DNA from: Diplonema papillatum
Lineage: Eukaryota; Euglenozoa; Diplonemea; Diplonemida; Diplonemidae
Reading direction: 5' to 3'
Length of the DNA: 64,000 bases
Assembly: GCA_030068145.1 (NCBI GenBank)
Contig: JAPJBO010000296.1
Coordinates: forward strand, 178,068-242,067
Shown: positions 28,502-60,975 of the stretch, in pieces
Layout of the letters: each line of letters begins with the position of its first letter
How positions within the stretch are numbered: position 1 is the stretch's first letter
Notes under the pieces: model-generated
What the model saw: only the letters and a program-made list of their open reading frames with translations
What the model was told of the DNA's origin: nothing
The model's database searches: none
Program-made: the position numbers and the translations under genes

Positions 28502-30167
28502 CATAGCTGTCAGCCACAAGGTTGCCACATTGTGGCCCCATTTAGCCACAAAGTAGCCACAAACCTTGTGGCTACCTTTGTGGCTAATTATGCAAAATTT
28601 TGGTATCACGGAAAACCGCGTGGAACTAACTTTTTCGGCCAGAAAATGCATCTGAAACACGTTTTCTGACGATTTTGACAGGGTTTTGGGCCAGAATACG
28701 GGTTAGTTGCTACACCCTGGGCTCGGCATCCTGGTTGCGCACCCTGGGGTACCATTGGTAAACGGTTTACTAAACCGCTACTGCTACTAAAGTAGTAGTA
28801 GGCATTATGCACACAGAATCATGCATAATTCAGGTTGGCGAGAGTGACAGACCCATTCTACTTGCAAAGCGCTTACCATTTCTGTCCTGAAACCCTCTGA
28901 GAGGGCCTCTCAACCAGCGACCGGCGCTCTCCGAGCCTCTTGAATGACCCCAGAGGAGGAGTGGGAGAGAGCGGCAAGTACCGCCGCAGCCAAACAGATT
29001 TGAATGCTGCCAGAAAGCTGCAAAGAAAACGTGGCAGCCGTCTGATAATAGTCAGGAGCTGGCGGATGGTGACTGAGCTTGAGCTCCCTGCCGCGGGCCT
29101 GCGGCCCGTGCTGCCCTGCTGGACTGGTATTGTCGCAAGTCAGTCACTTTCAACTTTCCCTTGTGCCTTGGCTGGGCCTGTGCTACAGGAGCCTGCGAGG
29201 AATTTCCAAGACGTGTGAGAGATTGCCCCCGCTACTTTTCTCGGATCTTTGGCTCCTCCTTGAACTCTTTCGGACGCTGATTGCAACAAGTGTAACAGTG
29301 CCACTCAGTGACAGCTGTTACAGGGAGTCAGTCACACTGTCAGTGTGCTCCTGCTGTACTATCATAGTAACTATGCCTGCTGCCGTGTGAAGTTGCGAGC
29401 TCTGTGCACTTTGCAAGCAAGCAAGCAAACTCGCTGGTGACGGGGTACCGAGTAGAAGAGCTGTCGTAATTGTGAGCTCCGTTTGCTGGGTCGTTGCTGT
29501 CCTGTTTAACCTTGGGTATCTTAGAATATCAGTGCATCGCCGTTACTAGTACGGCTGTCTCCGGCGTGGTTTGGGTCCTTTAGCAGGAAAAGTTGGAGAC
29601 TATGCACTCCGCAACTGAAACGGGTTTGCGGACAAGCGACCCTTTGAACTAAATTGATTCCTTGCCTGCTCCAAAACTTGGCAACAGAAGCATTGGCAGC
29701 TTCGTACTGACTCTGCGGTCTGAAATATCAACATCGCTTTCGACGGGTTCGTCTTCCTCCGGTGCACTCTCTGACTCAAAATGTACCAGAACTATGGCAT
29801 TAGCATTGGTGCTGCGACCGTGTTGGCAAGATGCAGCAGCTTGTTGTTGTTTTCTGAACTTTTCAAGCCTTGAATTACTTGCAGTGTTGTACGAAGTTAC
29901 TGATAGAGTTGCCAACGTTGCCGCTGACTCGCGGCTGAGGATACGAGGCCAGGGCGAAGCAGCTTACCCAAATTCGGGCCCAAAAACCTGTCAAAATCAT
30001 CAGAAATTGTGTTTTAGATGCATTTTCTGGCCGAAAAAACTAGTTTCACGTGGTTTTCCTGGGTATCAAAATTTTGCATAATTAGCCACAAAGGTAGCCA
30101 CAAGGTTTGTGGCTACTTTGTGGCTCCCAATTAGCCACTAGTGGCTACCTTGTGGCTGACAGCTATG
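28502..30167. mobile_element. TIR element A, copy 1 (1666 bp, complete, non-autonomous)
   Basis: The ends are exact inverted repeats, CATAGCTGTCAGCCACAAGG at the left and its complement at the right, extending into diverged TIRs of about 230 bp. The 7-bp direct repeat CAGGGGG flanks it at 28495-28501 and 30168-30174. Subterminal DNA contains many AGCCACAA/TTGTGGCT motifs able to form hairpins. There is no transposase: the internal open frames are short and unrecognised. A second copy, inverted and interrupted, lies at 44167-52113, and a diverged relative at about 54560-55080. The 7-bp TSD and CA...TG ends exclude Tc1/mariner (TA) and Mutator (9 bp); hAT (usually 8), P (7-8) or Dada (6-7) remain possible. 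Confidence 0.88.
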
Positions 30168-30423
30168 CAGGGGGTAGTGTCACTGCATCGCGGGTTTTTT
30201 TACCTGGTCGGACCTGCTCGCTAGCAGGCCAGCCCAGGTCGCAGTGAGACTGGCGTTCACTGTGTGCTGAAGAAGCATTTTTTTGGGCTCCCGCTCCGGA
30301 AGCAACCGGATACCGGTAGCCCCGCTGTACCAACATGGCTTGTACAGTGTCCCGCACTCCAAAAAAAAAACAAACTTTTCGAAATCTCAGCCATTCTGAG
30401 CCATCGAGCCATCGAGCCACCAG

Positions 30424-36121: not shown

Positions 36122-36197
36122 CGGGGAGAGCAATGAACCGGCACTGAGGGCTGTAGAGACGTGCTGCGAATCGACAGCGTGCGGGAGAGGTCCTCAA

Positions 36198-39100
36198 GTG
36201 CCGCTGCTACCAGCCCGCATAGCGCCCCTCTTGCGACGAACAAACGAACCAAGCGGGAGACCGCGGGCAAGCGGCAACACCAACGGGAGACGGGCGATCG
36301 CACGGTCCCGCGCCGTTGCAAGAAGCGTGGCAGCGGCGGCGGGCCAAGGTAGTTTAGAAGCAGACGCGCTCATAAAAGTCGCGTCCAGCAACTGCAGATC
36401 GTGGGGGGCGAGACAAGGCCCCAGATCGCTGGAAGACATAACGCGGGGCATAGACGCCGAAGACCCCGATATAATCCTATTGCAGGAGACGTGGTTAGAT
36501 GCAACAAAGCCCACACCATTTGTCCCCGGCTACGTCACGTACCGACGGGACCGCCCGGGACATAAAAAGGGAGGAGGCTTGTTGATATTGGTGAAGTCCT
36601 CCATCTGCTCTCGGCAGATCGAGGAGCACGACTTCGGAGCGGACGGATTGATGGAATGTCTGGGTGTCGAACTTGACCGGGTGAATCTTCCGAAGCTGAA
36701 ACTGTACAACGTATACAGACCACCGGAAGAAGGTGCGTCGCTAAACATGGGGCCTCTTGAAGGGGACGAACACGTAGTGATCAGTGGGGATCTGAACACA
36801 AGGCACCCGTCATGGTGCCCATCCGGCCAGTCAAACGCTGCCGGAGTGACGCTTCACGGATGGTTGTCGCTGAGACAGACGACGGTCTGGAACGACCCAG
36901 GGACACCGACTCGGGACGAGTCCAAAACGTCGCCAGATGTCACGATCTCGGCCGCACACCCGCACGCTGTGTTCAACTGGCGGACGATCGAATCTTGGGG
37001 GTCGGACCACCGCACTCTCATCTTCGAAGTGCCCCGCGGATACGAGCACAAGAGGGAACAGATCCGACCTCGCTACGCCTGGAGCCGTGCCGACTGGAAA
37101 GGGATGTCCAAATACCTTGAAAAAGACAGCACCTGGTCCCAAACCGAGTACGAGCAGAATAAGGAAAGCCCACAGCGCCTCGCCGACGCCATTTCTGACC
37201 GGATGAAAGGGGCCATCAGTCGATACGTCCCGAAGGCGTCGGGCAACAAACCACCGAAACCGTGGTGGACGAAAACGCTGACTCCTCTTTCGCGCCGGAA
37301 GGACGTTGCATTCAAACGGATGCAGAAGGAAGACAACGAAGAAACGGGGATGGCGTACACGGAGGCGAAACAGGCGTTCACGAAAGCCGCAACGGAAGCG
37401 AAGGCGGACTACTGGGACCGTCTAGTCAGCACGATCGACCACAGGACTGATCTGGGCCTCATGTTCCGGCTGGTACGGCAGCTAGATGGGAAGAAGTCGA
37501 AGCACACGCTCCCTCCATTGAAACACGAGGGAGTCACCATCACGGACTCGAAAGAGAAGGCGAACGTTCTCGTGAGGCACCTTGCGACCATCTGCAGGAA
37601 ATCGGAACGCAGCGTGGCAGGCCCGGACTTGACTCATCAAGCCACAGAAGCCGCCGAAGGCGCACAACTGAACTCGCAGTCCGAAGCCGATACGCCGATC
37701 ACCTTAGAGGAGGTGAACAGAGCGATCGAAAAGCTGAAGAAGAAAACGAGCTTGGACCCGGAGGGGCTTTGCCACATGGCCTACAAGCGCCTAGGCGAAG
37801 GTATGCGGCTCCGCGTACTGGACCTATGCAACGCATCTTGGAACAACGCAAGTGTTCCCTCCCAGTGGCGACAGGCACACGTGACACCGCTCCCGAAGCC
37901 GGGCAAAGACCGCTCGGAGCCATCGGGCTACCGGCCGATTTCGCTCACGAGCATAGCATCGAAGATAATGGAGACCATTATCAAGGACCGCCTCACATTC
38001 CTCATCGAAGGAGACTCCTCGGTCCGCGCGTTCACGCCGAACCAGGGGGGCTTCCGGATAGGGAGAGGCACGGAGGAGCAGCTGTACACCGTAACGGCGG
38101 CAATCGACCGGAACCGAAGGAAAGGCCGGTACACGTGCCTACTCGTCTTCGACCTGGCGCGCGCTTTCGACACAGTCGACCACGCGCGCCTGAAGAAACG
38201 AATGGTAGAGCGGGGCCTCCCGCTGAAGCTCATTCGATGGGTGGAGTCCTTCCTCAAGGGCAGAAACGCGATCTTCCGAGTGGACGGTGAGTACGGCGCC
38301 TCGGCGGAACTTGAGGGCGGTGTTCCGCAAGGGTCTGTACTGGGACCAATACTGTTCCTGCTGTACATCGACGACCTCGGGGACGACCTGGCGAAGCTGA
38401 AGGACTCAACGGCCTCGCTCTTCGCCGACGACGTAGGCGTAGTAGCGACGGGCAAAACGATGGCGGAGATGGCGAAGAACGTGCGTCTGATAATACAGGC
38501 GATGGAAAAGTGGTCGGACGAGGCGCTGATGCAGCTATCGCACGCAAAGACGGAGGCGATACTGTTCAAGCGCCCCGGAAACCCTGACGCGTCGCCGCCG
38601 ACGATAGAGTTCCCGGCAACCCGAGCGAACGTGGCGATCCGCGCGGACGCGTACAAAAGGAGAACGAGGAAGCACGGTCGCACGGCTCGTCGGCTGTTTG
38701 CACCACAGAGCCAACACCACGAAAAGCGAGTGACCGGACTGAACGGAAAGGCGGCTCGCACCCTGCAAGAGAGAACAATTGCGGAGGAGAGCATCGGAGA
38801 GGGCTCCGACCGGCTGACGATCTCCCTGGTGAGGGAACTCGAATGGAAGAAGACCGTCACCCTACTGGGTCTAACCTTCGACGAGGAACTGACATTCGAC
38901 CAGCATGTCAGCCGAGTGACGGCGGGCGCGGCCAAACACGCGTGCGTTCTCAGGCTTGTATCCGGTGCGGCATGGGGTCATCGTACGAAGACGCTCCGCT
39001 CGCTATACTACACCTACGTACTCCCGAAGATGACGTACGCCCTGTCGGTATACGGCGCCTTTGCCAGACCGACGACCATGGCGAAGCTGGAGAGCCAGCA

Positions 39101-39850
39101 CAAGGCCGGGCTTTGCGCCGTCACGGGATGCAGACGCTCGGCATCCGTGGAGGCCGTTTCGATTGAGTCGCGAGTGCAGCCAATCTCGGTCTATGCCGAA
39201 CTTCGACTTGCAACACTGTGCGAGAAGCTGGCGACCTACCCGCAGTGGCGGGACACCCTGGTCCCCACAAACAAGCACGACACGATCGCCGTCAAATACG
39301 GACTCCTGAAGAGGCGCGCGCGGACGGAAGACGTCGACAGGCAGACCCGCAAGGCGAACCCGTTCGCGCCGTGGGAGCCACGGTGCCCCAAAGTGCACAT
39401 CTCGGCAACACTGAGGAAGAAGTCGGAGGACGTGGAGGCGAACAGAAGGGTAGTGGAACGTGTGTTAGCCGCCCTGCCGACGCCGCTCTTGGTAACCTGG
39501 ACCGATGGCTCTGTTGTTGAGGAAACCACAATGGAACCGGCGCTAACAGTCCTCAACGGCACAACGGAACCGACACCCACGGAGACGAAATGGGGAGGAG
39601 CCGGGTTTGCCATCGAATCCGGAGATAATTGGTCGATACGGAGAAGCGCGCAAGACGATCTTCCCTGGTGGGCGACGAACAGCGGTCCGGCCGGCAAGTG
39701 GGCGACAAGCTACCGGGCGGAACAGGTGGCGATGCAGAGAGCCCTGCGCGTCCTCGTGGGCAGTCTGAGCAGGAGGAACGGCGAAACCCTGTGGATACTG
39801 ACTGACTCGAGCTCGCTCCTCCAGGACCTCGACCATGGACCACATCGGAA
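36198..39850 (+). CDS. Retrotransposon ORF2: EEP endonuclease, RT, start of RNase H (3' part inverted away)
   Basis: The frame opens near 36198 (GTG; no early ATG, so reinitiation or a non-AUG start after ORF1 is likely). The EEP nuclease has SNCRSWG, ILLQETWL, NVYRPP, ISGDLNTRHPSW and SWGSDHRTL. RT has GYRPISLTSIASKIME, FDLARAFDTVDHARL, GGVPQGSVLGPILFLLYIDD and the catalytic FADDVGVVA. RNase H begins LVTWTDGSVVE (Asp), with YRAEQVAMQ (Glu) and LTDSSSLL (Asp), and stops after DHGPH at about 39850. Beyond that the frame runs into non-homologous DNA and an antisense tRNA. The missing fourth RNase H motif and zinc tail appear on the minus strand from 43856 downward, so this copy is inactive through rearrangement. 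Confidence 0.88.
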
Positions 39851-39922
39851 AAGTCATGTTAGACCTAGGATAGGAACTACAAAAGGCTACAAAAAGCTGA
39901 AAGCCTGTGTGGTTCGGACCCA

Positions 39923-39928
39923 AAAAAG
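39923..39928 (-). terminator. Pol III terminator of tRNA-Met
   Basis: Six T on the minus strand begin two bases after the tRNA discriminator base, the expected RNA polymerase III stop. Confidence 0.75.
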
Positions 39929-39929
39929 T

Positions 39930-40002
39930 GCGAGGTGCCAGGATCGAACTGACGACCTTAGGATTATGAGACCTACGCGCTCCCGACTGCGCCAACCTCG
40001 CT
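39930..40002 (-). tRNA. tRNA-Met (CAU), elongator type
   Basis: The minus strand folds as a cloverleaf. The acceptor arm GCGAGGT pairs with ACCTCGC. The D arm is GCGC/GCGC around AGTCGGGA. The anticodon loop CTCATAA gives anticodon CAT. The T arm is GTCAG-TTCGATC-CTGGC, and the discriminator is A. One pair at the base of the anticodon loop (T-T) is mismatched. A box and B box are intact and an oligo-T terminator follows. The ATAA loop context fits elongator Met. There is no intron. It lies at the breakpoint between the truncated plus-strand ORF2 and the inverted 3' flank. Confidence 0.88.
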
Positions 40003-40738
40003 GATGCACAAAAAAAAACAAAATTTCTGTTCTGTTCTGTAGGGCGGAACGAAGCCCGGGCAAGACGAGGCTAGACGGTCTCTAACGGGCAAGCGTACAG
40101 TGGTTCTTTGTGCCACCATTTACTCCGTTGTGTTGTTTGTGATGGAGTGATGACTACTACTTGTTCGTTTTTCGGTTTTTTGTTTCACGTAAATTGTTTT
40201 TCCTTCTGGCAACGGTTCTTGGTTCTCGTTATTGGGTTCGCTTTCTGGTAATGGTTTTCGGTTTACGTAAATTGGTTCACTTTCTGTTAACGGTTTTCGG
40301 TTCACGTAAAAGTTTGAGGTCCTACTCCAAGTCCGAGGGCGTGGTCAGGGCGCGCAGCTTTTCATGTTTCAATGCTGTCTCCTCCGTGCCGTACCTTCTC
40401 GGGTGAGCATCGGACCTCAGTTTTGTTTGCGTTGTTTACGGGTTCAGGTTCTCTTCTTCTCTCGTTCGCCATTTGTTTTCGCTTCGCTTTGCCTTCGTTT
40501 CGTCGCTCTTCGAGGTTGCTTCGACGTCGGGGGTCGGCCGTCACGCAGTCACGGTCATGACTGTTCCTCGGACGCGCTCTCGTGGGCCGGGGGGGTTGTC
40601 CCTCCGACGGACGAGGCGGGGCCCGGTATGCGGTGGTTGAGTCGGGGCCGAGTCCGATTACGGGCGTGATAAACCGCTGGCCTCGAGTTCGCGTGTTTGT
40701 GTCGCGGTTCTCATGGCGGGCGGGCGGGATTCGGTGGG
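40003..40738 (-). other. 3' flank of the inverted retrotransposon part, T/G-rich on plus
   Basis: No gene is seen here. The composition matches the 3' flank of retrotransposon a. At 40185-40310 is a short tandem motif, about three copies, built from TTCACGTAAATTG, CACTTTCTGTTAAC and GGTTTTCGG. A run of A (40010-40018, plus) lies just beside the tRNA. Long antisense frames are composition artefacts. Confidence 0.45.
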
Positions 40739-41222: not shown

Positions 41223-43605
41223 CAGTGTGAGACTTAGCTATAGCTAGCTGATAGCTAGCTATAGCTAGCTAGCTATAGCTGAAAATAGCTAAAATAGCTA
41301 AAATAGCTGACTGAGCATTTTCAACGGAAATGTCACTATTCCGACTATTTTCTCGGATTTTGTGCCGTTTTCCACAGTTTACCGGGATTTTTCAGGCAGA
41401 TGATCAGCATGAGGTTCACACCGTGCTACCCGCCCCCCCCCCCCCCCCCCCCCCCCCTAACACTAGAGGCAAGTAGCGCCTGAACACGAAACTAAGATTT
41501 CCCCCCCCCCCCCTTACACTCCCTGCGACCCTTTTCCCTTTCCCCTATTTTATTTTACACTTTCTTCGACGAAGACTTGATGCTAGCATCAAACATGCAT
41601 GCGAGGCAGTACTCTGCCTAAACATTAAACTAAGTTTTTCCCCCCGGGCCCCCTTCATCGGGCTTCCCCCCTGTAGACTACTGCACAGTAGGACTGGACC
41701 TGGGTGGCTTGCTGCACTCTGGCAGTCTCTGCTAACAATGCTGGTAGACTTGTATCGTAGTGCCTGGGGGGAAACCCGACGCACCACAAACAATCCTTTT
41801 CATTTCCGGGTCCATTTCTCGCATCGGAGCTGATCGCGAGCAGGAATTCGAAAAACGTCTGCCACGTGGAGTCACGGTGGACCAGCCAAGAAATGTCACC
41901 AGCCAGGGATCGATTCCTGTCCTTCCCACTGCAAACCTGTGGTTTCCAAGCCCGGTGCTCTGCATCTTGTAAGAACCCACGGACCACGCACATACTGGAT
42001 GGTCCCTGGTCTATTTTTCACGGATCTCTTCATCGAGCTGATCGCGAGCAAAAAGTCGTCGAAAAAGGTCTGCTGCGTGAACCAGCAACATAATGCCACC
42101 ACCAGGGGATCGATACCCGTCCTGCTCAATGCACACCGGGTGGTTTCTACGCCCGGTGCTCTGCATCCTATAAGAACCCACGGACCACGCACGTAGTGTT
42201 TGATTCCCGGGTCTATTTCTCACGGATCTCTTCATCGAAGCTGATCGCGAGCAAAAAGTCGTCGAAAAAGGTCTGCTGCGTGAACCAGCAACATAATGCC
42301 ACCACCAGGGGATCGATACCCGTCCTGCTCAATGCACACCGGGTGGTCTCCAAGCCCGGTGCTCTGCATCCTGTAAGAACCCACGGACCACGCACGTAGT
42401 GTTTGATTCCCGGGTCTATTTTTCACGGATCTCTTCATCGAAGCTGATCGCGAGCAAAACTTTGTCGACAAAGGTCTGCTACGCGGACCAGCAACAGAAT
42501 GCCACCAGCCAGGGGATCGATACCGTCCGTGTTCAATGCACACCTGATCAGGCTGGTGGTTTCTACGCCCGGTGCCCTGCAAATTGTAAAAACTACTGAC
42601 CACGCACATAGTTTTCTGTCTCCGGGTCTATTTTTCACGGATCTCTTCATCGGAGCTGTTCGCAAGCAAAAATTCGTCGGAAAAGGTCTGCTATGTGGAC
42701 CAGCGGGAAAATGTCGCCAACCAGGGGATCGAAACCCGTTCTTCCCAGTGCACACCGGTGGTTTCCACGCCCGGTGCCCTGCATCTTGCACGGACCCACG
42801 AACAATGCACATACTTTTTCGTTTCCGGGTCTATTTTTCACAGTTCTTTTCATCGGAGCTGATTGCGAGCAAAAATTCGTCGAAAAAGGTCAGCTACATG
42901 GACCAGCGGGAAAAAGTTACCAACCAGGGGGTCGATACCCGTCTTGCTCGATGCCCACCTGGTGGTTTCCACACCCGGTGCCCTGCATCATGCACGGACC
43001 CACGAACCACGCGCATACTTTTTCGTTTTCGGGTCTATTTTTCACGGATCTCTTCATTGCAGCTGATCGCGAGCTAAAATTCGTCGAAAAAGGCCTGCCG
43101 CGTGGTCCGGCGGGAAAATGCCACCACCCAGGGGATCGATTCCCGTCCTTCTCAATCCACACGTGGCGGCTTCCACGCCCGGCGCCCTGCAACTTGTAAA
43201 GGGCCCCGAACCACGCACATAGTTTTTCGTCTCCGGGTCTATTCTTCACGGATCTCTTCATCGGAGCTGAAAACGAGCAAAAACTCGTCGAAAAAGGTTT
43301 GCTACATGGACCAGCGGGAAAATGTCACCAGCCAGGAAATCGATACCCTGCACACGCCGTGACACGGCCCGGAGAGGGCGGGGGGGGGGTACCAGGGGGG
43401 GGTTGGGCGACTCTGAAAACGAGAACGAGGCAGAAAATCTGGTTTCGTCGCAATTTTTTTTTGCATTTTTGGGCACCTACCTGAGGTTTTCTGACGAAAA
43501 AGACGTGAACATATTTTCAGTCGTCTGGGCAGCTATTTTAGCTATTTTAGCTATAAATAGCTAAAAATAGCTAGCTGGCCAAATAGCTAGCTAAGTCTCA
43601 CACTG
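41223..43605. mobile_element. TIR element B (2383 bp) carrying a tandem array
   Basis: Perfect 18-bp ends CAGTGTGAGACTTAGCTA / TAGCTAAGTCTCACACTG are followed by AGCTA-rich, hairpin-prone subterminal DNA on both sides. The 7-bp duplication CTTCAGC flanks it (41216-41222 and 43606-43612). No transposase ORF is present. The interior holds poly-C tracts (about 41429-41458 and 41502-41512) and eight 200-bp units. It is inserted in the RNase H/zinc-tail region of the inverted retrotransposon part. A lone end of this family lies at about 53128-53147. Confidence 0.9.
41800..43375 (+). repeat. Eight tandem ~200-bp units with tRNA-like A/B boxes
   Basis: Anchors GCTGATCGCGAGCAAAAA (or variants) occur near 41834, 42037, 42240, 42443, 42655, 42858, 43060 and 43266. 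Each unit carries GTGGACCAGCGGGAAAATG-like (A-box-like) and, about 35 bp on, GGGATCGATACCC-like (B-box-like) sequence, then CACGCCCGGTGCCCTGCAT and CCACGGACCACGCACATA. Units differ by roughly 5-15 percent. The Pol III reading is inference; no full cloverleaf was found. Confidence 0.75.
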
Positions 43606-43856: not shown

Positions 43857-44166
43857 AAAAAAAAGCCGAAACGAAAACGGCCCTGAAACCGCCTCACTGA
43901 CTGGCTCACACTCAACGGCAGTGCGAAAGTGTCAGCCGTACAGTAACATTACAATTCAATTGTATTATCACCCATTCCACGAAAAAGTGTCACAGATTTT
44001 CCGTCTGAAAAGCAGCCCGTTTTGGGTCAAAATTTTGGAATTTTTGGGAAATTTTTTTTGGGATGGAAAGAGCTATCCCTGGCGATTATGGGCAAGCAAT
44101 CAGCTCGCGTGGCGACCAAAATCTGGCGTGCAGATGGACAAAAGGTCGGTTTTGGGGCTGTTTCCC
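43857..44166. other. Flanking repeat DNA, left shell of the nested insertion
   Basis: No gene is present. At 43969-44000 lies CACCCATTCCACGAAAAAGT, matched in inverted orientation at 52494-52524. At 43985-44140 is a segment matched directly by 52140-52290 (shared GAAAAGCAGCC and GCGATTATGGGCAAGC). A relative lies at 59950-60070 (GGTGGAAAGAGCTACCCCC). Confidence 0.5.
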
Positions 44167-45015
44167 CATAGCTGTCAGCCACAAGGTAGCCACTAGTGGC
44201 TAATTGGGAGCCACAAAGTAGCCACAAACCTTGTGGCTACCTTTGTGGCTAATTGTGCAAAATTTTGATACCGAGGAAAACCACGTGAAACTAGTTTTTT
44301 CGGCCAGAAAATGCATCTAAAACACAATTTCTGATGATTTTGACAGGTTTTTGGGCCCGAATTAGGGTAAGCTGCTTCGCCCTGGCCTCGTATCCTCAGC
44401 CGCGAGTCAGCGGCAACGTTGGCAACTCTATCAGTAACTTCGTACAACACTGCAAGTAATTCAAGGCTTGAAAAGTTCAGAAAACAACAACAAGCTGCTG
44501 CATCTTGCCAACACGGTCGCAGCACCAATGCTAATGCCATAGTTCTGGTACATTTTGAGTCAGAGAGTGCACCGGAGGAAGACGAACCCGTCGAAAGCGA
44601 TGTTGATATTTCAGACCGCAGAGTCAGTACGAAGCTGCCAATGCTTGGAATCAATTTAGTTCAAAGGGTCGCTTGTCCGCAAACCCGTTTCAGTTGCGGG
44701 GTGCATAGTCTCCAACTTTTCCTGCTAAAGGACCCAAACCACGCCGGTGACAGCCGTACTAGTAACGGCGATGCACTGATATTCTAAGATACCCAAGGTT
44801 AACAGGACAGCAACGACCCAGCAAACGGAGCATTTCACAATTACGACAGCTCTTCTACTCGGTGTGCAAGCTACCCCGTCACCAGCGAGTTTGCTTGCTT
44901 GCTTGCAAAGTGCACAGAGCTCGCAACTTCACACGACAGCAGGCATAGTTACTATGATAGTACAGCAGGAGCACACTGACAGTGTGACTGACTCCCTGTA
45001 ACAGCTGTCACTGAG

Positions 45016-45428
45016 CAGGGCTGGTTAGCCACAACTTGCCAAGTTGTGGCCCATTGGGCCACAACTTTAGCCACAATGTTGTGGCTAAATTGTGGCTAAA
45101 TGTGCAAATTTTTTGATCGAAAAAAAGACCACCCAAAACACGCTAAACACCGTTTTTCGGGTAGATTTTCGTGTTTTTTGGATGGTTTTGGGTATTCTGG
45201 GCCTCATACCCCCCCAACAGACCTCGAGTTCGCCTTTCGTGGATTCGAGTGGTTTTTGCCAACTTGCAGCCAAGTGCTGCCAGTTTCTGGGGTGACTCAG
45301 CCAGAATTCGCTATTGTTTTGCGAAATCCGCGGCGTGTGGGGGTTTTCCCGGTTGGTACTGGACCCTTTCGACAATTTCAGGTGGATTCTGTGCGAATAA
45401 ACGGGGGAAATGCTTGCCAGGCTCCCCG
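45016..45428 (+). repeat. Left TIR arm of element C
   Basis: An inverted match to 50893-51304. Terminal GCCACAACTT/AAGTTGTGGC blocks can form nested hairpins, followed by GTGCAAATTTTTTGATC, a block shared in form with element A. Confidence 0.9.
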
Positions 45429-46466
45429 GTCCCGTGCGCTGCGCAACACGGGATGGGTATCTTCGTGTCACGTGCACGTTCCAAACATGGTTCATGCTAC
45501 CGCGGTCCCGGTTTATTGCCACTGCCACTCCCAACAGCTCGAGAGTCGACTGGGACTCACCTTTCCTCTCAGCAGTCCTGATTCAGGCTGCGAAAGCTTG
45601 ACATCCTTCAATTCATGCCACTGACATTCTGAATTGAAGTTGTTCCAGCCGCGGACCTGCATGCAACGACGTTCACTCATCCACTCATCCGCTTTTTCGT
45701 TCTTCTTCGTCACGGCTTAGTTCAGTGCGAATCGCACCGAGCCTGGTCACCAGGTTGGTGCTGCTCGGAGCCGCACCCGAGGGAGATGCAGAACAGGTTG
45801 TATCACAACCGGTGCGCATCAGCTCTGCATCGCCGTGCACTGCACGGTGTAGCACTGCCCAGGCGCGGCGAGACCAGTGACCGTCATCCTGCTCGGTGTT
45901 CAGGAGGAGGTGACCCGCTTGGCAGGCAGCACCGCTGCGCAGTGTACTCTTCCGTACTCTGCACCGTGCAAGCGCCAGTCATGTGCTTACCAGACTCTCG
46001 GTTTCGCGTTCTCATCATGGCATCAAATTTGACGGTGAAATCAGCCCCCAGCCTGAGTCCAGGATAGGTTGCTTGCAATGCAACAGTTGCAACAAGTAAT
46101 CGATGAACGGAAACTTTTTACAGTAGCAAGGAACCGACAGCAAACTGGTGCACGGGTCGGTGCAAATCCTGTGCAACGGGTTTGCGGACATGATCGTGTC
46201 GCATTCGTAGTGAACTGTTGAAGTCATTATCCGCGATGACAGCCTACCCCGGGACTTGGACCGAGTCCTGCTGTCGAAAATACCACAGTGTTCAAAATCG
46301 CCGGCGATTGAATCGGTCTGGACAGCAGGCTGGTCGCCACACGGTTGCCACGTTTCTTTTTTTTTTTTTTTTTCCCGACGACAACTCGTGTCAGACTAGC
46401 CTACCCGAAGGCAGTTGATTTCTTTAGGCAAGGTTTCTCTGCCGGCGGAAGTTGTTTGGGTTAGCG
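45429..46466. other. Unassigned interior of element C
   Basis: One kilobase lies between the left arm and the retrogene tail. No ORF or RNA gene was recognised. At 46327-46353 is CAGGCTGGTCGCCACACGGT, resembling the orphan third-family end near 30681. A run of 17 T follows at 46357-46373. Confidence 0.4.
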
Positions 46467-46482
46467 TTTTTTTTTTTTTTTT
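46467..46482 (-). other. Poly(A) tail of the retrogene (16 A on minus)
   Basis: Sixteen T on the plus strand lie 81 bp beyond the stop codon of the minus-strand ORF2, as expected for the 3' end of a reverse-transcribed polyadenylated RNA. Confidence 0.6.
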
Positions 46483-46563
46483 GTCGGCCGCCCAATGTCC
46501 ACTCTCCTTACTGTCTTTCTCCTTTCCGCTAGTCGCCTTTTTCACTGTCAAATCAAGCATGCA

Positions 46564-49500
46564 CTAATCGAGATATCTCAAAACGAGGGATGACCAACGA
46601 GCCGCGAGCGGGTCGTCACATAGCGCTTTCACGCGCCTGGCCACGTGGCGGATTGTGGGCCTTCGTCTTGTCGCAAAGTCTTCGAGGAGTCGCCTCAGAT
46701 GTGGTCGGTCTTGTGGGTATGCTTCCATGATATCAGACACATCATTGTGCGTCGCGTCGTCTGCCAGCAGTACATGCTGGGCGGTTGCCATCTCCGCGCA
46801 CCGTATACAGTTGACCTTTGTGCCTCGAGGCATTACCGCACGCCGCACGATGGACTGCAGGAGGTCTGCCGCCCCGGGTATGGTCTCGAGGGAGCCGAGG
46901 GTGCTTCCCTTTGTCGTCTTTGCCGATGCCAGCTCTCGGATACTCCTCATGGCCGTCTTCGTGCGGCGGTGACGCCAGACGCGCCGCACGAAACGGATGG
47001 GGCTCTCCAGCATCGGGAACTCCTCAGCCACGAGACAGCACACAGACTTCACCCCGTTTAAAAGGTGGAGCAACTCCATGCTTAGACCCGGTCCTCTGTC
47101 CCGGAGTGCCTGGGTCGCCGCCTCGTCCGCCCGGTTGATGAAGGCGTTGTCGGCGTGCCCCTTACTCCATCGAAGGCACTGCGCGTACTCGCCTACTGCG
47201 TTGGCGACGGGGTCGCCGGGCTCTCCGCGGCGGACACGCAAGATTGCGGCCTCGCTGTCGCTGTACCACGTGACACGGTCGGGTGCGACTTCACGCCGCC
47301 GTAATGTCGTCGCTAACAGGTAGATGGCGGCCAACTCGGTCTCCGTACTCGATGTCACCGTGCCCCTCACCATGCAGCCGAACGACGTCGTGCCAATTGA
47401 CACCCCGGCGGACCCGCGTGATTCGTCTTCCAGGAACCCCCCGTCGGTCGCCACCACCATTTCCCGCGGCTCCGAGAATTCATCCGTCCCCAGTAGCGCG
47501 TCTAACCGTTCCAAAACGTCCTCTCCCTCGACCGTCGGGTGTGGCGGCCTTCGCCGGAATCCTTCGACCGGCAGTGCGCTTTTCGCCTCGTCAGGTCGAT
47601 GAGCCAGTACCGCCCGCGTTCGTTGTAGCGCCGCATATGTCTCGACATTTTGGCAGGCAAAGCCGTCTTTGCACCACGCGAAATCCTTTATCCCCCTGCT
47701 GTGGCGATGCTTGGGAAAGAGACTCGCGTGGGCTGCAACGAGCTTCGGCGCCCGCGGGTCGAAGCAAGACGAAAGACAGTGCATCGATACGATGGGGAGC
47801 ACGTGGCTGCTGAAAAAGGCGCATTTTCGCCTTGTGGAGCGGTGCACGTGGGAGTTTGTGAAGTCGACGAGGCGCGCCAGCCTTTCCATGCACTTGGCGT
47901 CATTGTCGCACCCACTCAGTCGTCCGCCCGCATGGATACACACGCCCAGCAGTCTTGCCCGGTTGGTGGTTTCACGGATGGGATCCGAGCTCCATGCGAA
48001 GGAAGACCTCGCCAGTACAACCGTCTTTTCCTCAGCCAACTCCAGGTCTTTCGATGTCGCCCACTTCTTTAGGGCCCTGTACGTTCCTTGGAGTCTTGAT
48101 CTCGTCGTACGTGCAACCAGGTCATCGACGTATGCCCGTGTTTCATCCTCGGGGGGAGGCTCGCAGGTATACAAGATGTACAGCAGCACGCTGAGGGGTG
48201 ATCCCTGGAGAACGCCGCGTTTCATGCCAACCGGCGGGGTGAAACCGTCATAGTGCACAATCGACACTTCCTGATCCTCGATGACCCTCGCTATCGTCCT
48301 CGCCCACTCGGGACCAAGCAACCTCTCGACCGTCCGAACCAGCTTTTCATGCGGTATCGTGTCAAATGCCGCGAGAACGTCGACTAGCAGCAGCAGGTGT
48401 TCATCGTCGGGCTCCGTGCCTGAACCCGATTCCAGCCATTCCTTCGCATAAAGCACTACCTGTGCTGCCCCGCTCCGGCTGCCGCACCCGAACTGGAATT
48501 TGTACCTGAGGACCACCGATTGCACGAGCGGCTTCATCTTCTGGTACAGCGTCGAGTGCAAAAGCTTTGCGAATAGGGGCATTATGGCGATCGGGCGATA
48601 CCCCCTCGGCTCCGACCTTCGCAGCGCCTTTCCCTTCCAAAACAAGAAAATCCACGACAACCGCTGGCGCGCCGGGACGCCTTCACGAACCCATCTATTC
48701 AGCTCATCCGTTGTTGATTGTACGGCTTCTTCAGACATAACTCTTAGAAACTTCGGTGAAAAATCTGCCGTTCTCGCGGTGGGCCGGATGGCTTCGATTG
48801 CCGTCCTGAGGTCTTCGGTTGTCAATGCGACTGCTTCGGTGTCCGGGGGTATGATTATCGGGGGACTGGGCGTGTCGGATTTATACTTGTTTCGGAGGAA
48901 AGCTGTAAAGGCGTCGGGATTTTCCAGCAACGGAGGCTGGTACGGAGTCGTCAGGTTGGGCGGCCTCTGCTTCATCGCGACCACGTCCAACTTCTTCCGT
49001 ACAGATCGTATCTCGGCGTTCAACAACTTCTTTTGCTCCGGGCCGGCCGCGCTTCGGAGAAGGATCCGTCGGTAGAGAGCGTCCTGCAGCCTCGCCACCT
49101 TCGTGCTTCTGGGTCGCGGTGGGGGGCTTGCACCCGTTTCATCCAGTGTGTTCAGCAAATCGGAAAAGGCCGTCTGGTCGAGGACTTGTCGCTTCGATGG
49201 GTAGATCATGGCCGGAGGCTTCTTCAGGAATTTGTCGAATCGGAGGATTAGTACGGCGTGATCGCTTCCACCGGTGAACCGTATTCTGTCCAAGCTCCAG
49301 CGCGATCTTCTCGGTACAAACGCCCTATCCAGGGATGACGCGGCGTTGGACCTCGCGAACGTGGTTTGCGACCGAACCAGCTCCTGCAGATTTTCCCTCC
49401 GTACTCGAATCTCTACTTGGGGGGTTGTCCGCGGATTAAAATCCCCGACAACTGCAACATCAGTCACACAGTCCCGAGCTCGCGACGCTATCCAGTCTCC

Positions 49501-49824
49501 AAGTCGATCCGTCAGGGCATCACGTTTGTGGCACGGAACGTATACACTTACCACTCGCAATGTCTCGCCAGCCACCTGCAGATCCGCGCTGCACGCCCCG
49601 TACCCCGAATAGCACTGTGATAGTGTAATCAGGGATTGCTTCTTTATCAGTATCGCCGTTCGGGCCAGGGGGCGCCCGTTCGCGTAGGGGCACGTACCCA
49701 CTACGACGACACTCCATCCAGCACGCTTCGCGTATTCGCGGAAATTTGTGGGCTCACGACCAATCTCGTTCACCGCCAGGATATCGCCGGCGGGTAGGCG
49801 AGCGAAAAATCTCTCAAGACACAT
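46564..49824 (-). CDS. Intact retrotransposon ORF2: EEP endonuclease, RT (YVDD), RNase H (at least 1086 aa)
   Basis: One uninterrupted frame. EEP: ILAVNEIG, VYVPCHKRD, AVVGDFNPRTT and FTGGSDHAVLIL. RT: GYRPIAIMPLFAKLLH, LLLVDVLAAFDTIPHEKL, GVLQGSPLSVLLYILY and a catalytic YVDDLVA. RNase H: VVATDGGFLEDESRGSAG (Asp), ETELAAIYLLATTL (Glu), WYSDSEAAIL (Asp) and RWSKGHADNAFINRADEA (Asp). All expected catalytic acids are present, so it may be active. The ATG at 49824 is within the EEP domain: the open frame continues upstream with VRLFLPSERSLVLLSCNASS, so the true start is further right. The zinc tail is only weakly visible (NCIRCAEMATAQHVLL). Confidence 0.9.
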   Translation of the reverse strand: MCLERFFARLPAGDILAVNEIGREPTNFREYAKRAGWSVVVVGTCPYANGRPLARTAILIKKQSLITLSQCYSGYGACSADLQVAGETLRVVSVYVPCHKRDALTDRLGDWIASRARDCVTDVAVVGDFNPRTTPQVEIRVRRENLQELVRSQTTFARSNAASSLDRAFVPRRSRWSLDRIRFTGGSDHAVLILRFDKFLKKPPAMIYPSKRQVLDQTAFSDLLNTLDETGASPPPRPRSTKVARLQDALYRRILLRSAAGPEQKKLLNAEIRSVRKKLDVVAMKQRPPNLTTPYQPPLLENPDAFTAFLRNKYKSDTPSPPIIIPPDTEAVALTTEDLRTAIEAIRPTARTADFSPKFLRVMSEEAVQSTTDELNRWVREGVPARQRLSWIFLFWKGKALRRSEPRGYRPIAIMPLFAKLLHSTLYQKMKPLVQSVVLRYKFQFGCGSRSGAAQVVLYAKEWLESGSGTEPDDEHLLLLVDVLAAFDTIPHEKLVRTVERLLGPEWARTIARVIEDQEVSIVHYDGFTPPVGMKRGVLQGSPLSVLLYILYTCEPPPEDETRAYVDDLVARTTRSRLQGTYRALKKWATSKDLELAEEKTVVLARSSFAWSSDPIRETTNRARLLGVCIHAGGRLSGCDNDAKCMERLARLVDFTNSHVHRSTRRKCAFFSSHVLPIVSMHCLSSCFDPRAPKLVAAHASLFPKHRHSRGIKDFAWCKDGFACQNVETYAALQRTRAVLAHRPDEAKSALPVEGFRRRPPHPTVEGEDVLERLDALLGTDEFSEPREMVVATDGGFLEDESRGSAGVSIGTTSFGCMVRGTVTSSTETELAAIYLLATTLRRREVAPDRVTWYSDSEAAILRVRRGEPGDPVANAVGEYAQCLRWSKGHADNAFINRADEAATQALRDRGPGLSMELLHLLNGVKSVCCLVAEEFPMLESPIRFVRRVWRHRRTKTAMRSIRELASAKTTKGSTLGSLETIPGAADLLQSIVRRAVMPRGTKVNCIRCAEMATAQHVLLADDATHNDVSDIMEAYPQDRPHLRRLLEDFATRRRPTIRHVARRVKALCDDPLAARWSSLVLRYLD

Positions 49825-50063
49825 CTTCGAGGAGGCATTGCACGACAGTAGGACTAGGCTTCTTTCGGAAGGGAGAAAAAGGCGGACGTTAGTGGACGGT
49901 ATGATCAGAGGAGGCCGTGGACGTAAGGGACCGGTTGTTTCGGTTGGTTGTTGTGACAGGGAGGGATTGACTGATGGGCTGGGTGATATTTCGAGGGAGG
50001 AATTGACTGATAAGGTTGACCTGACGTTGTTGGGGTTGTTTGTTTCCGTCTTATAGACCGTGG

Positions 50064-50783
50064 CTAATAGGAGCCCATCGGGTCGTCCCCGGGGCGCGGG
50101 TTTTCAAGCGGTGACGTCCCCCCGCCGCCTTCTCCAACCCGCTCCCCAGGCTTGCTCTTTGCCGGTGGCGACACCGACATCTCGCCCTCTCGTTCTAGAC
50201 CCCTCTTCGCTCCAACTGCGTCCTCTTTCTCCGCCCTTGCCTTTGCGCCTGTCTTCTCCTTCTCCCCTTTTCCCTTCTTGCCGGCTCCTCGCCCTTTCGG
50301 CGCGCCTCCCTTCCCTTTTTCGGTTACCTGCACTCCCTGTGGCCTGCATTCCTGGTCATTTCCGCTCTTCGACCGTTCGTCCGCTGCCTCGTCATCGGAT
50401 GCGCTCGTCTCTCCGCGACTCGCTGCTCGGGCGTACGTTCTGGGGGTCCGCGGGGCGCCCGTCTCTCCCTCCACCAAAACGCCCAGTTCCCCGAAGCGTA
50501 GCTCCCTGGCTCCAATCTTGATCTGCAGACTCTGCAGTAGGGCCTCCTCTTCCTCCTCCAGCCCTTTCACCGCAAAGGTCGTCGTTGCCCGCGTTAGACC
50601 GTACGCCGGAATCAGTTCGAATCCGCTTGTCACCCCAGCGTGGTTCAGGGCTAACTGGACTTCGTAGTCTGCCAGCGTCCTACTGAGTCCCACCACCCCG
50701 AATTCTCCTTTTTTTGAAGTGTACGGAGCCTGGGCCTTAGCCTTTTGAGAGGGAAACATGGGAACATGAATGTACCTGGCCAT
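50064..50783 (-). CDS. Retrotransposon ORF1 (239 aa), basic nucleic-acid-binding candidate
   Basis: Upstream of the RT gene on the same strand, about 240 bp from the ATG at 49824. N-terminal segment FGVVGLSRTLADYEVQLALN and ELIPAYGLTRATTTFAVKGL may form a small alpha/beta fold. It is followed by a Lys/Arg/Gly-rich disordered half (KGKGGAPKGRGAGKKGKG) and an acidic/Pro tail. Position and charge fit an ORF1 RNA-binding protein. It has no resemblance to the giant ORF1 of the 31-36 kb element and no ubiquitin-like part. Confidence 0.6.
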   Translation of the reverse strand: MARYIHVPMFPSQKAKAQAPYTSKKGEFGVVGLSRTLADYEVQLALNHAGVTSGFELIPAYGLTRATTTFAVKGLEEEEEALLQSLQIKIGARELRFGELGVLVEGETGAPRTPRTYARAASRGETSASDDEAADERSKSGNDQECRPQGVQVTEKGKGGAPKGRGAGKKGKGEKEKTGAKARAEKEDAVGAKRGLEREGEMSVSPPAKSKPGERVGEGGGGTSPLENPRPGDDPMGSY

Positions 50784-50892
50784 CCTTTAGCTCCGTTAGG
50801 TCGGGAGAGGAACGGTTTCCGGTGTGCCTTGTTGTCGGCTCCGGTTAGAAGTCCGGTTGGGGAGCTTCGTCACGTGTGGCCACCGTGTGGAA

Positions 50893-51304
50893 CGAGGAGC
50901 CTGGCAAGGATTTCCCCCGTTTATTCGCACAGAATCCACCTGAAATTGTCGAAAGGGTCCAGTACCATCCGGGAAAACCCCCACAAGCCGCGGATTTCGC
51001 AAAATAATAGCGAATTCTGGCTGAGTCACCCCAGAAATTGGCAGCACTTGGCTGCAAGTTGGCAAATACCACTCGAATCCACGAGAAGCGAACTCGAGGT
51101 CTGTTGGGGGGGTATGAGGCCCAGAATCCCAAAACCATCCAAAAAACACGAAAATCCACACAAAAAACGGTGTTTAGCGTGTTTTGGGTGGTCTTTTTTT
51201 CGATCAAAATTTTTGCACATTTAGCCACAATTTAGCCACAACATTGTGGCTAAAGTTGTGGCTAAATGGGCCACAATGTGGCAAGTTGTGGCTAACCAGC
51301 CCTG
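50893..51304 (-). repeat. Right TIR arm of element C
   Basis: The inverted partner of 45016-45428, with differences of single bases plus one or two indels. Inside it lies GTGTGGCCACCGTGTGG (50876-50891), resembling the third TIR family. Confidence 0.9.
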
Positions 51305-52120
51305 CACTGAGTGGCACTGTTACACTTGTTGCAATCAGCGTCCGAAAGAGTTCAAGGAGGAGCCAAAGATCCGAGAAAAGTAGCGGGGGCAATCTCTCAC
51401 ACGTCTTGGAAATTCCTCGCAGGCTCCTGTAGCACAGGCCCAGCCAAGGCACAAGGGAAAGTTGAAAGTGACTGACTTGCGACAATACCAGTCCAGCAGG
51501 GCAGCACGGGCCGCAGGCCCGCGGCAGGGAGCTCAAGCTCAGTCACCATCCGCCAGCTCCTGACTATTATCAGACGGCTGCCACGTTTTGTTTGCAGCTT
51601 TCTGGCAGCATTCAAATCTGTTTGGCTGCGGCGGTACTTGCCGCTCTCTCCCACTCCTCCTCTGGGGTCATTCAAGAGGCTCGGAGAGCGCCGGTCGCTG
51701 GTTGAGAGGCCCTCTCAGAGGGTTTCAGGACAGAAATGGTAAGCGCTTTGCAAGTAGAATGGGTCTGTCACTCTCGCCAACCTGAATTATGCATGATTCT
51801 GTGTGCATAATGCCTACTACTACTTTAGTAGCAGTAGCGGTTTAGTAAACCGTTTACCAATGGTACCCCAGGGTGCGCAACCAGGATGCCGAGCCCAGGG
51901 TGTAGCAACTAACCCGTATTCTGGCCCAAAACCCTGTCAAAATCGTCAGACAACGTGTTTCAGATGCATTTTCTGGCCGAAAAAGTTAGTTCCACGCGGT
52001 TTTCCGTGATACCAAAATTTTGCATAATTAGCCACAAAGGTAGCCACAAGGTTTGTGGCTACTTTGTGGCTAAATGGGGCCACAATGTGGCAACCTTGTG
52101 GCTGACAGCTATGGTTTCCC

Positions 52121-55578: not shown

Positions 55579-58500
55579 CTAGTCAGCGAAGATTGCGAAG
55601 TTCGGTAGGTCCTTTGTTTTTTGGAGAAGCAGCAGGAGGCCTACGCAGTTGGTTGTTGAGAAAACTTGAGGCAGAGTGGAGGGAGGGGGATATCTAAGTG
55701 CGGCGCGTCTAAGCTTCTCTAATACGTGACAATGTAGTGCGAAGTGTTCTAACATGGTGGTATTCGTTTTTAGGTGGCAGTGCCAGCAAATGCCATTTTG
55801 CAAGGCGTGTTTCCTCGCGTTATCACACAGGAAGTGTTTATTAACGCAGGAGTGACCGGTTCGCAGCGCTATCAGTGCTGTTTCGGCTTGTCTAGTTAAA
55901 GTTGGCTGTAGCCACGTGGGGAGGTGACCATCAGTGGCTCTGAAGTGATAATTATGTGGCCGGGAAGACAACCATTCCTTTTTCAGGGTCTCTACAACAC
56001 GTGCCTTCGCAGAATTAAAATCAAGTGGGGCGGGAGTAATTAAGCCAGTGGCAAGGCGAGCAACATTGGCGATCCTGTCTGCGTGTTCGTTCCCCATTAT
56101 GCCACAATGAGCAGGAACATGGTGCAGGACAATATCTGCAGACTCGTTGGCAGCTATTTCTCTCAGGAGAAGTAGGATTTGCGTCGCCAGGGAGTCAGTT
56201 TGTCTGAGACCGTTTTTAAGGGTCTGCAGACAGCACTGTGAATCAGACAGCAAGACAATCTTTTTACCAGTTAAGCATGGAAGCACATGCTTAACGGCAA
56301 TAATGCCAAGAAGTATGGCGACGAGTTCTGCACGGTCAATGGTGGCAAACTTCCCACCACTCGTCATGAGCTCAAGGCTATTGCTAGTAAGCCGACGCAA
56401 TCGGATTTTACGTCCACCAATTTTTCGCGGGAATGAGCACAGCAATTCATCCGGGATCGCGTTACGAGTGGCGAGAAAGCAGCCGGATCCGGTATTATCG
56501 TTGCCAGGCGACTTCGAAGCATCAGTGAACACGCGCAGGTCGGGTATAAAGTACGAGTTGACCGCCTTCCGTGCCGCCAGCCGGTTGCGTTCGCGGGGTT
56601 GCTTCTTGTGAACACCAGGGCACACCGGGACGATGCGTATCGTGGGCGGGAGATTCGAGGAAGGACATATTTGAGGGCCGATGAGCTCCTGTGGTTGGAC
56701 GAGCAGGAGACCAGTGTCAGCTAGTTCGGCGCGCGCGGAGTGCACCCAAGAAGATTCAGTGGGGCGGGACTTGACGCAGTTGTCGTGTGCACGGGTGTGG
56801 GGGAGTCGTCTCAGTCGTTCGTAGAGGGTGCAGCTGAGCTTCTTGCAGATGAGTTCAAGAGGAAGAACGTGAGCTTCGAGATGTAGCGAGTGGAGCTCAG
56901 TTGACAACGGCAGACCAGTGATAATGCGTAAGGCGCGGTGATGATCCATCTCCAGAGCATGAAAATCGCTGTAATGCAAGCCAGGGCCAAAGACCCCAAA
57001 CCCATACAGCAGGACCGGCAGCACGTACGTCAAGTACATCGTCCTTAGTGTCCGTGCATGAGCAGACGCAACTTTAGTTGAGACGGCCTTCAGGTTGGAC
57101 AGGCGAGCATTGAACCGGAGTCTGACGTTGCTCACGTGTTCGGAGAACGAGAGTGAAGCGTCAAAGATAACTCCTAGAAAACGCGCCGCTGGAACATTGC
57201 TGAGCAAAGGGGCGGACGAGGGCGTTCAGGATTGAGACAGGATCGGTGAGTTCAAGTCCGTTGCAGAGCAATATCTTGTGTCCATCAATGCGGTTCAGGC
57301 ACCGATTGTTCGTCTCTTTCGCTTTCTTGGATAGGCGGAATGTACAAGTCGTTGGATCGATGAGGTCACTCGGGAGTAACTTTGCTCCCGAGAGGAAGTC
57401 GAGCGAAAGGCGCGTATTCGAGACTGTTGACGGGAAGTGGACGTCGATGTTGGAAATGGCATCACTAGGTCCAGCCGGAAAGTAAACTACATGGGTTTTG
57501 CTCGCAGACATTACCATTTCGAAGTCATGCGCCCATTCGTCGACAGCACTGCAGACCTTTTGCGCGAGATCTTGAAGTTCGACGTCCGAGTAAGCGCTGC
57601 AGACAACAGCTAGATCGTCCGCATACAACGAGAAAGTAAACCCTGGGATTAGGGCTTCAAGTCTGGCAGCAAGGGGATCGATGTAGCACAGGAAGAGCAT
57701 GGGTGCCAGAACTGTACCTTGAGGGACACCTTTCACAAGATTGAAGTACTGACCCAGGGTACCATTAACCTTTGCCGCAGCTCTGCGTCCGTGCAAGAAG
57801 TGGTCGATCCACCTTTTTAGGCGTCCCGAAATGTTCTTCTCAGCAAGCTGAGACCGGAGGATCACCTTGTCTACTCTGTCAAACGCTTTTGATATGTCAA
57901 AAAGCAGTAAGACAGACTTTTTACCAGCCGAACGGGCCTGCGCCAGTGAGTGTTGCACCGAGGCAATTTGCTCTTCCGCGGAGCGACTCTTCTGAAAACC
58001 CGCCTGGGCAGGATGAATCGGGTTGGGCGACAGAGCGTAGTTAAGACGTACTAGTACCATTCTTTCAACAAGCTTGGCAATGCAACTGGTTAGTGCTATG
58101 GGTCGGTAGGAGTCCAGTAGCTCAGAGGGTTTGTCAGGTTTGAGAAGCATCCGTATATGTGCCTCTTTCCAGCTGGGAGGGACGATGCTTTTAGACCACG
58201 AGAGGTTGACCAGGCGAAGTAGGATGCGTCTGGAGGGGTCGTTGAGGTGGGACAACATCAGGTTATTAACACCGTCCGGGCCAGTGCTGGTAGAGGGCTT
58301 GAGGTCCAGCAAGGCTGCTTCGAGTTCTTCCAGGCTAAAGTTAAAGTCCATGGGATGAGTCGAAGTATCAACAGGTGGAGGAGACACCTGCCCTGCACAT
58401 ACTGCTGCAAGATGGTTCCCCATGGCAGTTGCTTTCTTTCTGTCATCGTGTTCATACTTCCCGTCGATGAGGATCGGCGGAACGGAGGGATCATCGTCGT

Positions 58501-59600
58501 CAGCGTCAGTGAATTTCATCGCCCGGTGAAAGTCCGCAATGTTTGATGTGCGCGAAAGTGTTGAGACCTTTTTTTCGATGTGCCCAGCTTTGGCCTTGTT
58601 GATGAGCTTGTTTATCTTCGACTGTGCATCGTTCAGTAGTAGACTATCTTTCGCAGGGTCAGATCCAGGTCGGGAGCGATCCGATAGGGTTGCGCGCAGC
58701 AGGTCTCTAGCCGTCAGAGCAGCACGGAACTCATCGTTGAACCAGGGTTTACCGCGCGTCACGTAAGGAACGGGAAAACTGCTTCGAGAATGTCACGATA
58801 TCGTTCGTTTGAATTTTTGCAAGAAGTGAGTCAGCCGAGGTTCCAAATGCATCCCAGTCAGCTCTGTTCCACCGGAAGGGTTTTAACGTCACGGAAGGTC
58901 TGGTGTGGATTTCAGGTAAACAGAGTAGCATGGGGGCATGGTCAGAGCCGCCGGTGACATCCAGCGTTTTCCAAGAGGCAGTCATGTTACACGGAGCGAG
59001 TACAAGATCCGGCGAGGTTTTCGAACGAGGACGGGTGGGCGTTTCGGGGTTGTTGCAGACTGTGACGTCAGAATTCAGTATCCAATCAGCAAGTGACTTA
59101 CTACGGGAGGAAGGCACCGACTGGGCTTCCCAAAGGGGATGGTGAAGGTTGAAGTCACCGGCTACTATCGCATCGGAGGAGGGAAGGAGGCTGGGATTAA
59201 AATAGTCGACCCGCGTGTCAACACGGGAGTAAGGGGGGATGGGCGGTTTATAGATGTTGACAACACGGATCTTGCGATCACCTGGAAGAATGACTTCAAT
59301 GTCCAGCCGTTCAGTTGCATCTTCTGCATTCGCTGCGCGAAAATCAATCTGTCGATGAGCAAGTGAGTCGCTAACAAGCGTCAGGAGACCACCACTTATT
59401 TTGCCGTTTCCGAGGTCCGAGCGGGCGATCGTTCTAGCAAATTGGTAAACCTTGAAGCCAGGGATCGTTGGTGCAGAGTTGGAGGGAAGGTTCGTTTCTT
59501 GCAGTAGCACAATATCGACATTGTAATTGGCGATGACCCAGAGAATAAAGCTACGCCTAAGAGTCCAGCTGTTGCAGTTGAATATTAGAACCCTCAAGCT
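55579..59600 (-). mobile_element. Non-LTR retrotransposon f: EEP, RT, RNase H in three overlapping frames
   Basis: Minus-strand ORF2 split by two frameshifts. 59597-58749 is EEP (FNCNSWTLRR, IVLLQETNLPS, IVAGDFNLHHPLW, TGGSDHAPMLL). 58762-57161 is RT (YRPIALTSCIAKLVERM, LLLFDISKAFDRVDKVI, GVPQGTVLAPMLFLCYIDP, YADDLAVV). 57207-55579 is the RT end plus RNase H (FTDASKSPGNDNTGSG, DRAELVAILL, LSDSQCCLQTL, HVPAHCGIMGNEHADRIAN) and a C-rich tail (CWHCHLKTNTTMLEHFALHC). The frames overlap by 14 and 47 bp, the pattern of simple indels, so the copy is probably dead unless they are sequencing errors. The layout fits the I/ingi group. No ORF1 or poly(A) tail was found. Confidence 0.85.
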
Positions 59601-59792
59601 TGTCTTGGGACCAGGGTGTGGATGGATGTCGCCACATGTGAGAAGTGACTTGCCGTGCGGGTTGCAGCGAGGATGTACGAGAGGCTTGGTTGTCGATAGT
59701 CTTGGAGCGTCATGGCTCAGGTCGCTTCAATGCTTCTTACTCGTCTTTTTGTTCACGGTGGACTTCGGGGATACCGAACCTCCGAAATAATA

Positions 59793-60552: not shown

Positions 60553-60975
60553 GGCTGCAGTAAAAGTTCCGCCAGACAGAACAGAACAGAACAGGCCCTT
60601 GAAACAAGTCAGGCCCGAGGTGACCTAGTTCTAGTCCCTCAACATGTCCTCCCAGCCTGCGTTCCATCAACTTTTCGTTGGTGGTCCTTCTACATAACAC
60701 TAAGAGATTGAATTGATGATTGTCGCTGCTACTACAATGTTCGAATCTGATAGACTGACGATTTTACCGACAGACAGTTTAGCAGCCTAAGGGTAAGCTA
60801 ACCTAACAACGACTATCTGGCGATGGTGGCATGAGTCACGGTCGGAGTTCTACTCCATGCACAGGAAGAGTCGTCCTTCTTCTTTCCTAGTTTGACAAAA
60901 GGAACAAAAGAACGACTTGCCCGTACAAGCAAATGCAGTTCTCGCCCCCTGCATGTCTTCCGTAGTTGCTTACTC

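Follow-up and report, generated by a model that had tools for sequence, protein, structure and literature searches.

At positions 45016 to 51304 of a 64,000-nt stretch of Diplonema papillatum DNA (hereafter the window), inverted terminal arms with an exact 7-bp duplication at both edges enclose a reverse transcriptase (RT) gene. The locus raises the question of whether a small DNA transposon received a retrotransposon insertion or a TIR element moves an RT gene as its cargo, two options that the sequence-only reading had kept open. We compared the window with itself and with the 271 Mb genome (2910 contigs). The locus is almost certainly a nest of three layers, in which a LINE lies in an inner hAT element and this in turn in an outer TIR element. 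The TIR-plus-RT unit is ordinary nesting and no new kind of element.

Empty site and copies of the inner element

The two DNA transposons of the nest comprise the following features.

44160..44166: left copy of the outer element's TSD, GTTTCCC
44167..52113: outer TIR element with 5′-CATAGCTGTCAGCCACAA ends, interrupted by the inner element
52114..52120: right copy of the outer element's TSD, GTTTCCC
28502..30167, minus strand: paralogue of the outer element in uninterrupted form, 1666 bp long and flanked on either side by the TSD CAGGGGG
45009..45015: left copy of the inner element's TSD, CACTGAG
45016..51304: inner TIR element of the non-autonomous hAT type, usually about 1938 bp long and here split by the LINE
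45016..45432, plus strand: left arm (TIR)
45433..46363, plus strand: hAT internal part to the left of the LINE
50716..50888, plus strand: hAT internal part to the right of the LINE, as far as the right arm
50889..51304, minus strand: right arm (TIR)
51305..51311: right copy of the inner element's TSD, CACTGAG

The inverted arms and the exact CACTGAG at both edges, as first described, were confirmed, with the arms about 94% identical (94.3%; 93% and 95% in separate pieces). In the self-comparison of the window, 44167-45015 and 51305-52113 jointly constitute a reverse copy of 28502-30167, and the joined flanks align with this paralogue end to end at 97.2% identity with 39 gap columns. The two BLAST matches to the paralogue overlap by 7 bp (29304-29310), which read CACTGAG, and the paralogue carries this motif once at the overlap site. 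The single CACTGAG and the match of the flanks thus place 45016-51304 within the outer element and reveal, in the same window, the empty site that the sequence-only reading had proposed to look for. The similar ends and the 7-bp TSD suggest that the outer element belongs to the superfamily of the inner one.

The outer and inner families insert into each other. A reverse nesting was observed at L032 (1221-2452), where a 1232-bp outer-family element with CATAGCTGTCAG ends, shorter than the outer element of the window, is inserted in an inner-family hAT copy with the 7-bp TSD TGTGGCG.

The terminal 19-mer of the inner element occurs genome-wide in 62 + 62 exact copies, with none for the reversed-pattern control. 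Among the loci found by the arm search (40 of 180 candidates scored), unoccupied copies correspond to 45016-46363 joined to 50708-51304, the two parts overlapping by 8 bp, and therefore the ordinary inner element is about 1938 bp long. When joined, the two hAT halves of the window matched all eight chosen copies (L011, L016, L019, L021, L022, L025, L040 and L048) over the full length at 99.5-99.7% identity. Another 41 sequences match the hAT part 45433-46363 at 98-100% identity, in some cases over only a portion of it, and none passes 46364 into LINE sequence (40 of 1625 candidates scored). The sequence-only reading had asked whether the arms and the RT recur together in several copies with different 7-bp TSDs. 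LINE DNA was absent from the 44 other loci fetched (L009-L052), two pairs of which overlap and many of which were picked for ends pairing at short distance, except for a 90-bp match of 76% in L051; neither L051 nor L050 is a copy of the inner element.

The right arms of unoccupied copies are mostly 95-96% identical to the left arm of the window while their left arms are mostly 98-99% identical to it, which indicates that the difference between the arms is a trait of the family. An age estimate from arm divergence was dropped for this reason.

Two loci, L029 and L030, represent longer inner elements holding other insertions, none of which is the LINE. The insertion in L029 spans 4.66 kb (2425-7082), has GGGGAACTACGGGGAACTGG repeats near both ends and contains an open frame of 796 codons for which Pfam gave no match at E≤0.1; it is possibly a DNA transposon absent from Pfam.

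Superfamily of the inner element

We counted TSDs at 40 loci (L009-L049 without L020), 35 of which have a complete and uncut pair of inner-type ends, including the coding relatives L031 and L049. Exact 7-bp TSDs flank 24 of the 35 pairs and are all distinct. The remaining 11 pairs lack an exact 7-bp TSD, with L015 and L026 being off by one base. No pair matched exactly at 6 bp, and the 8-bp TSD usual for hAT elements was likewise found in none of the 35.

Coding relatives of the inner element provided the clue to its superfamily. L031 on C371 carries diverged copies of the inner ends and a transposase gene with an internal deletion. A DNA search with L031 led to a 3340-bp element on C1790 (L049, 1762-5101) with the same CAGGGCTGGTTAGCCACAA ends and the TSD GAGCAAG on both sides. 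Its open frame, 834 codons long from one stop to the next, matches Dimer_Tnp_hAT with E 5.7e-8 (32.9 bits, cut-off 21.4) and DUF659 with E 2e-5, the latter below its cut-off, and its PDB matches are weak (Hermes/transposase, E 0.09-0.23). Because L049 shares the ends and the 7-bp TSD and encodes a hAT transposase, we assign the inner family on sequence grounds to the hAT superfamily, with TSDs of an unusual 7 bp. Judging from the shared ends, a transposase like that of L049 probably moves the 1.94-kb element.

An assignment to the P superfamily, based on the 7-bp TSD and the long arms, was dropped once L049 showed a hAT transposase. Galileo of the P superfamily has 7-bp TSDs, as in the inner family, and long TIRs, resembling the arms of the inner element; the inner family differs from it in that its coding relative has a hAT and not a P transposase. 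The PF21788 profile, which together with PF21787 we take to be a Pfam model for P-type transposases, gave zero matches here, and likewise matched none of 14 controls.

The failure to find the 8-bp TSD does not rule out hAT since families with 5, 6 and 7-bp TSDs, named hAT5, hAT6 and hAT7, are described in passages of PMC12730594. In these passages, hAT7 denotes hAT-superfamily elements with 7-bp TSDs, described from the rust fungi Puccinia and Melampsora. The inner family is like hAT7 as portrayed there in its hAT transposase and 7-bp TSDs, and it enlarges the set of hAT groups with TSDs other than 8 bp that these passages list. As a by-product of this analysis, the genome thus yields an abundant hAT family with 7-bp TSDs, in which a coding relative exists alongside non-autonomous copies.

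Insertion site and unlinked copies of the LINE

The innermost layer is composed as follows.

46356..46363: LINE target duplication CTTTTTTT, fused to the poly(A) tail in the T-run 46357-46373
46364..50707, minus strand: non-LTR retrotransposon, 5′-truncated, with its 3′ end at poly(A)
46564..49824, minus strand: ORF2, 1086 aa from the first ATG, with RT, RNase H below cut-off and EEP by motif only
50064..50783, minus strand: apparent ORF1, of which 50064-50707 is truncated LINE ORF1 and 50708-50783 in-frame hAT sequence
50708..50715: second copy of CTTTTTTT

No internal retrotransposon TSD had been recognized at first sight. In fact, CTTTTTTT is present at both LINE edges and once in unoccupied hAT copies, whose target reads GTTTCTTTTTTTGAAGTG with one extra T in L027; an empty site was thereby observed for the second inner insertion as well. 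Nearly homopolymeric and merging with the poly(A) tail, the duplication is by itself a poor TSD.

A search with 49825-50783 (40 of 264 candidates scored) revealed 23 other copies matching the whole LINE part at 99-100% identity, and the 40 other matches reach at most 5 bp past the LINE edge into hAT sequence. We inspected 10 copies chosen from the 23 full matches. In all 10, the 60 upstream bases are one shared LINE sequence and not hAT, and hence the copy in the window is 5′-truncated inside ORF1. Eight of them end in CGTCGG or CGTCGGG followed by poly(A) at the expected distance and show seven different 3′ flanks, with C2201 and C2042 sharing theirs; for the other two (L058 and L068), the expected LINE 3′ end is missing from the stretch fetched. 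None of the 20 junction stretches from the 10 copies matches the hAT element. The exact LINE 3′ end with an A-tract occurs in 63 + 59 = 122 copies genome-wide (control 0). By eye, the 3′ flank of the LINE copy on C1845 (L059/L060) resembles the sequence GCAGGGGGTAG..CACTGCATCGCGGGT that borders the outer element's paralogue at window positions 30168-30195, which suggests that both sit in a further repeat.

These searches bear on whether a hAT-type TIR element moves the RT as cargo, in which case the LINE would have joined it at another place and the whole 6.3-kb unit would then have transposed into the outer element. Both hAT ends of the unit are intact and its 7-bp TSD is perfect, and a transposase could in principle move it. 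However, LINE-hAT joints were found only in the window by searches with the 3′ and 5′ junctions (40 candidates scored each), and the intact unoccupied LINE target, CTTCAAAAAAAGAAACGTGGCAACC, exists genome-wide in 28 + 19 = 47 exact copies (reversed-pattern control 0). Among the listed sites of the terminal 19-mer, the unoccupied target and the LINE 3′ end, five contigs hold both families by eye (C55, C296, C313, C592 and C1103), and only on C296, in the window, do hAT and LINE lie closer than about 30 kb. Cargo transposition is therefore extremely unlikely and left without support by the arms and LINEs that occur apart in the other copies examined. The sequence-only reading had named arms without RT, and RT copies ending at poly(A) without arms, as the mark of simple nesting; both were found for the element ends, by which the LINE family was counted. 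The first option, a retrotransposon landing in a small DNA transposon, was right.

In the Tx1L/Tx1D pair, a LINE targets a DNA transposon. A similar specific targeting of this hAT element might be considered for an insertion into the T7 tract of a DNA transposon that is itself repeated, but the junction stretches of the 10 inspected LINE copies show no hAT match and, again by eye, the LINE 3′ end of the window is the only one listed that has a listed hAT end close by. We give this relation next to no credence and regard the insertion as a case of ordinary nesting.

Retaining both ends, the LINE-loaded hAT element could conceivably move in trans as a 6.3-kb unit and represent a first step to an RT-carrying DNA transposon, its ORF1 being a chimera that begins with 25 residues from hAT, although we consider this very unlikely.

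The apparent ORF1 starts at 50783 within the TIR element, its first 25 codons are hAT sequence, and the unoccupied element L009 reads the same 25-residue peptide. That the arm ends so close to ORF1, previously taken as a hint of cargo, is thus explained by the 5′ truncation of the LINE and by the hAT codons 50783-50708, which happen to run in frame into ORF1. Of the uninterrupted pair of ORFs, ORF2 is open as claimed over 1086 aa while ORF1 is devoid of its own 5′ part. The complete EEP-RT-RNase H set likewise held in part: ORF2 matches RVT_1 (PF00078) with E 1.7e-13, the RNase H match remains below its cut-off (E 0.034), and EEP gave no match in a Pfam search at E≤1, its motifs SCNA, VNE, GDFN and GSDH being visible by eye only. 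The PDB matches of the LINE are weak (five sequences with E 0.0013-0.0038, four of them LINE-1 ORF2 and the fifth 8c8j, named 'RNA-directed DNA polymerase'). The element has the hallmarks of a non-LTR retrotransposon, namely a poly(A) 3′ end, 5′ truncation, a short though weak TSD and no terminal repeats of its own. It shares the RT domain, the poly(A) end, 5′ truncation and insertion at an A/T tract with EEP-RT-RNase H LINEs, and we saw no structural difference from them.

Order of insertions and other features of the window

The insertion order is outer TIR element, inner hAT element and LINE. The outer element inserted first, generating the 7-bp TSD GTTTCCC. The 1.94-kb non-autonomous element of the hAT superfamily, with its 417-bp arms, then entered the outer element with the TSD CACTGAG, and finally the LINE entered the T7 tract of the hAT element, presumably by target-primed reverse transcription. 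The LINE belongs to an abundant non-LTR family of the EEP-RT-RNase H type with poly(A) tails, and this copy is truncated at the 5′ end inside ORF1. The enzymes may have been a hAT transposase that acted in trans and resembled the one of L049, and the LINE proteins of a full copy. Cut-and-paste in trans by hAT elements and target-primed reverse transcription are established behaviours of these families.

The window harbors further LINE-like sequences. One other LINE in it is 26% identical to the nested LINE in the RT region (254 aligned positions). At 35991-40017, a LINE ORF2 outside the nest displays EEP, RT and RNase H by eye, with the RNase H part breaking off. At its end lies a tRNA-Met in antisense orientation (39928-40001) with an A-tract behind it, and the whole may be either a chimera of LINE and tRNA or an insertion. 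At 55579-59726 and 60835-63297, RT and RNase H motifs were recognized by eye in more LINE-like ORFs. A fragment at 21748-22031 corresponds to eukaryotic LSU rRNA (Rfam RF02543, 59.5 bits), and no second rRNA hit in the window reached the gathering score. Finally, 41877-43348 is a tandem array of 7.2 copies of a unit of roughly 203 bp with 82% matches.
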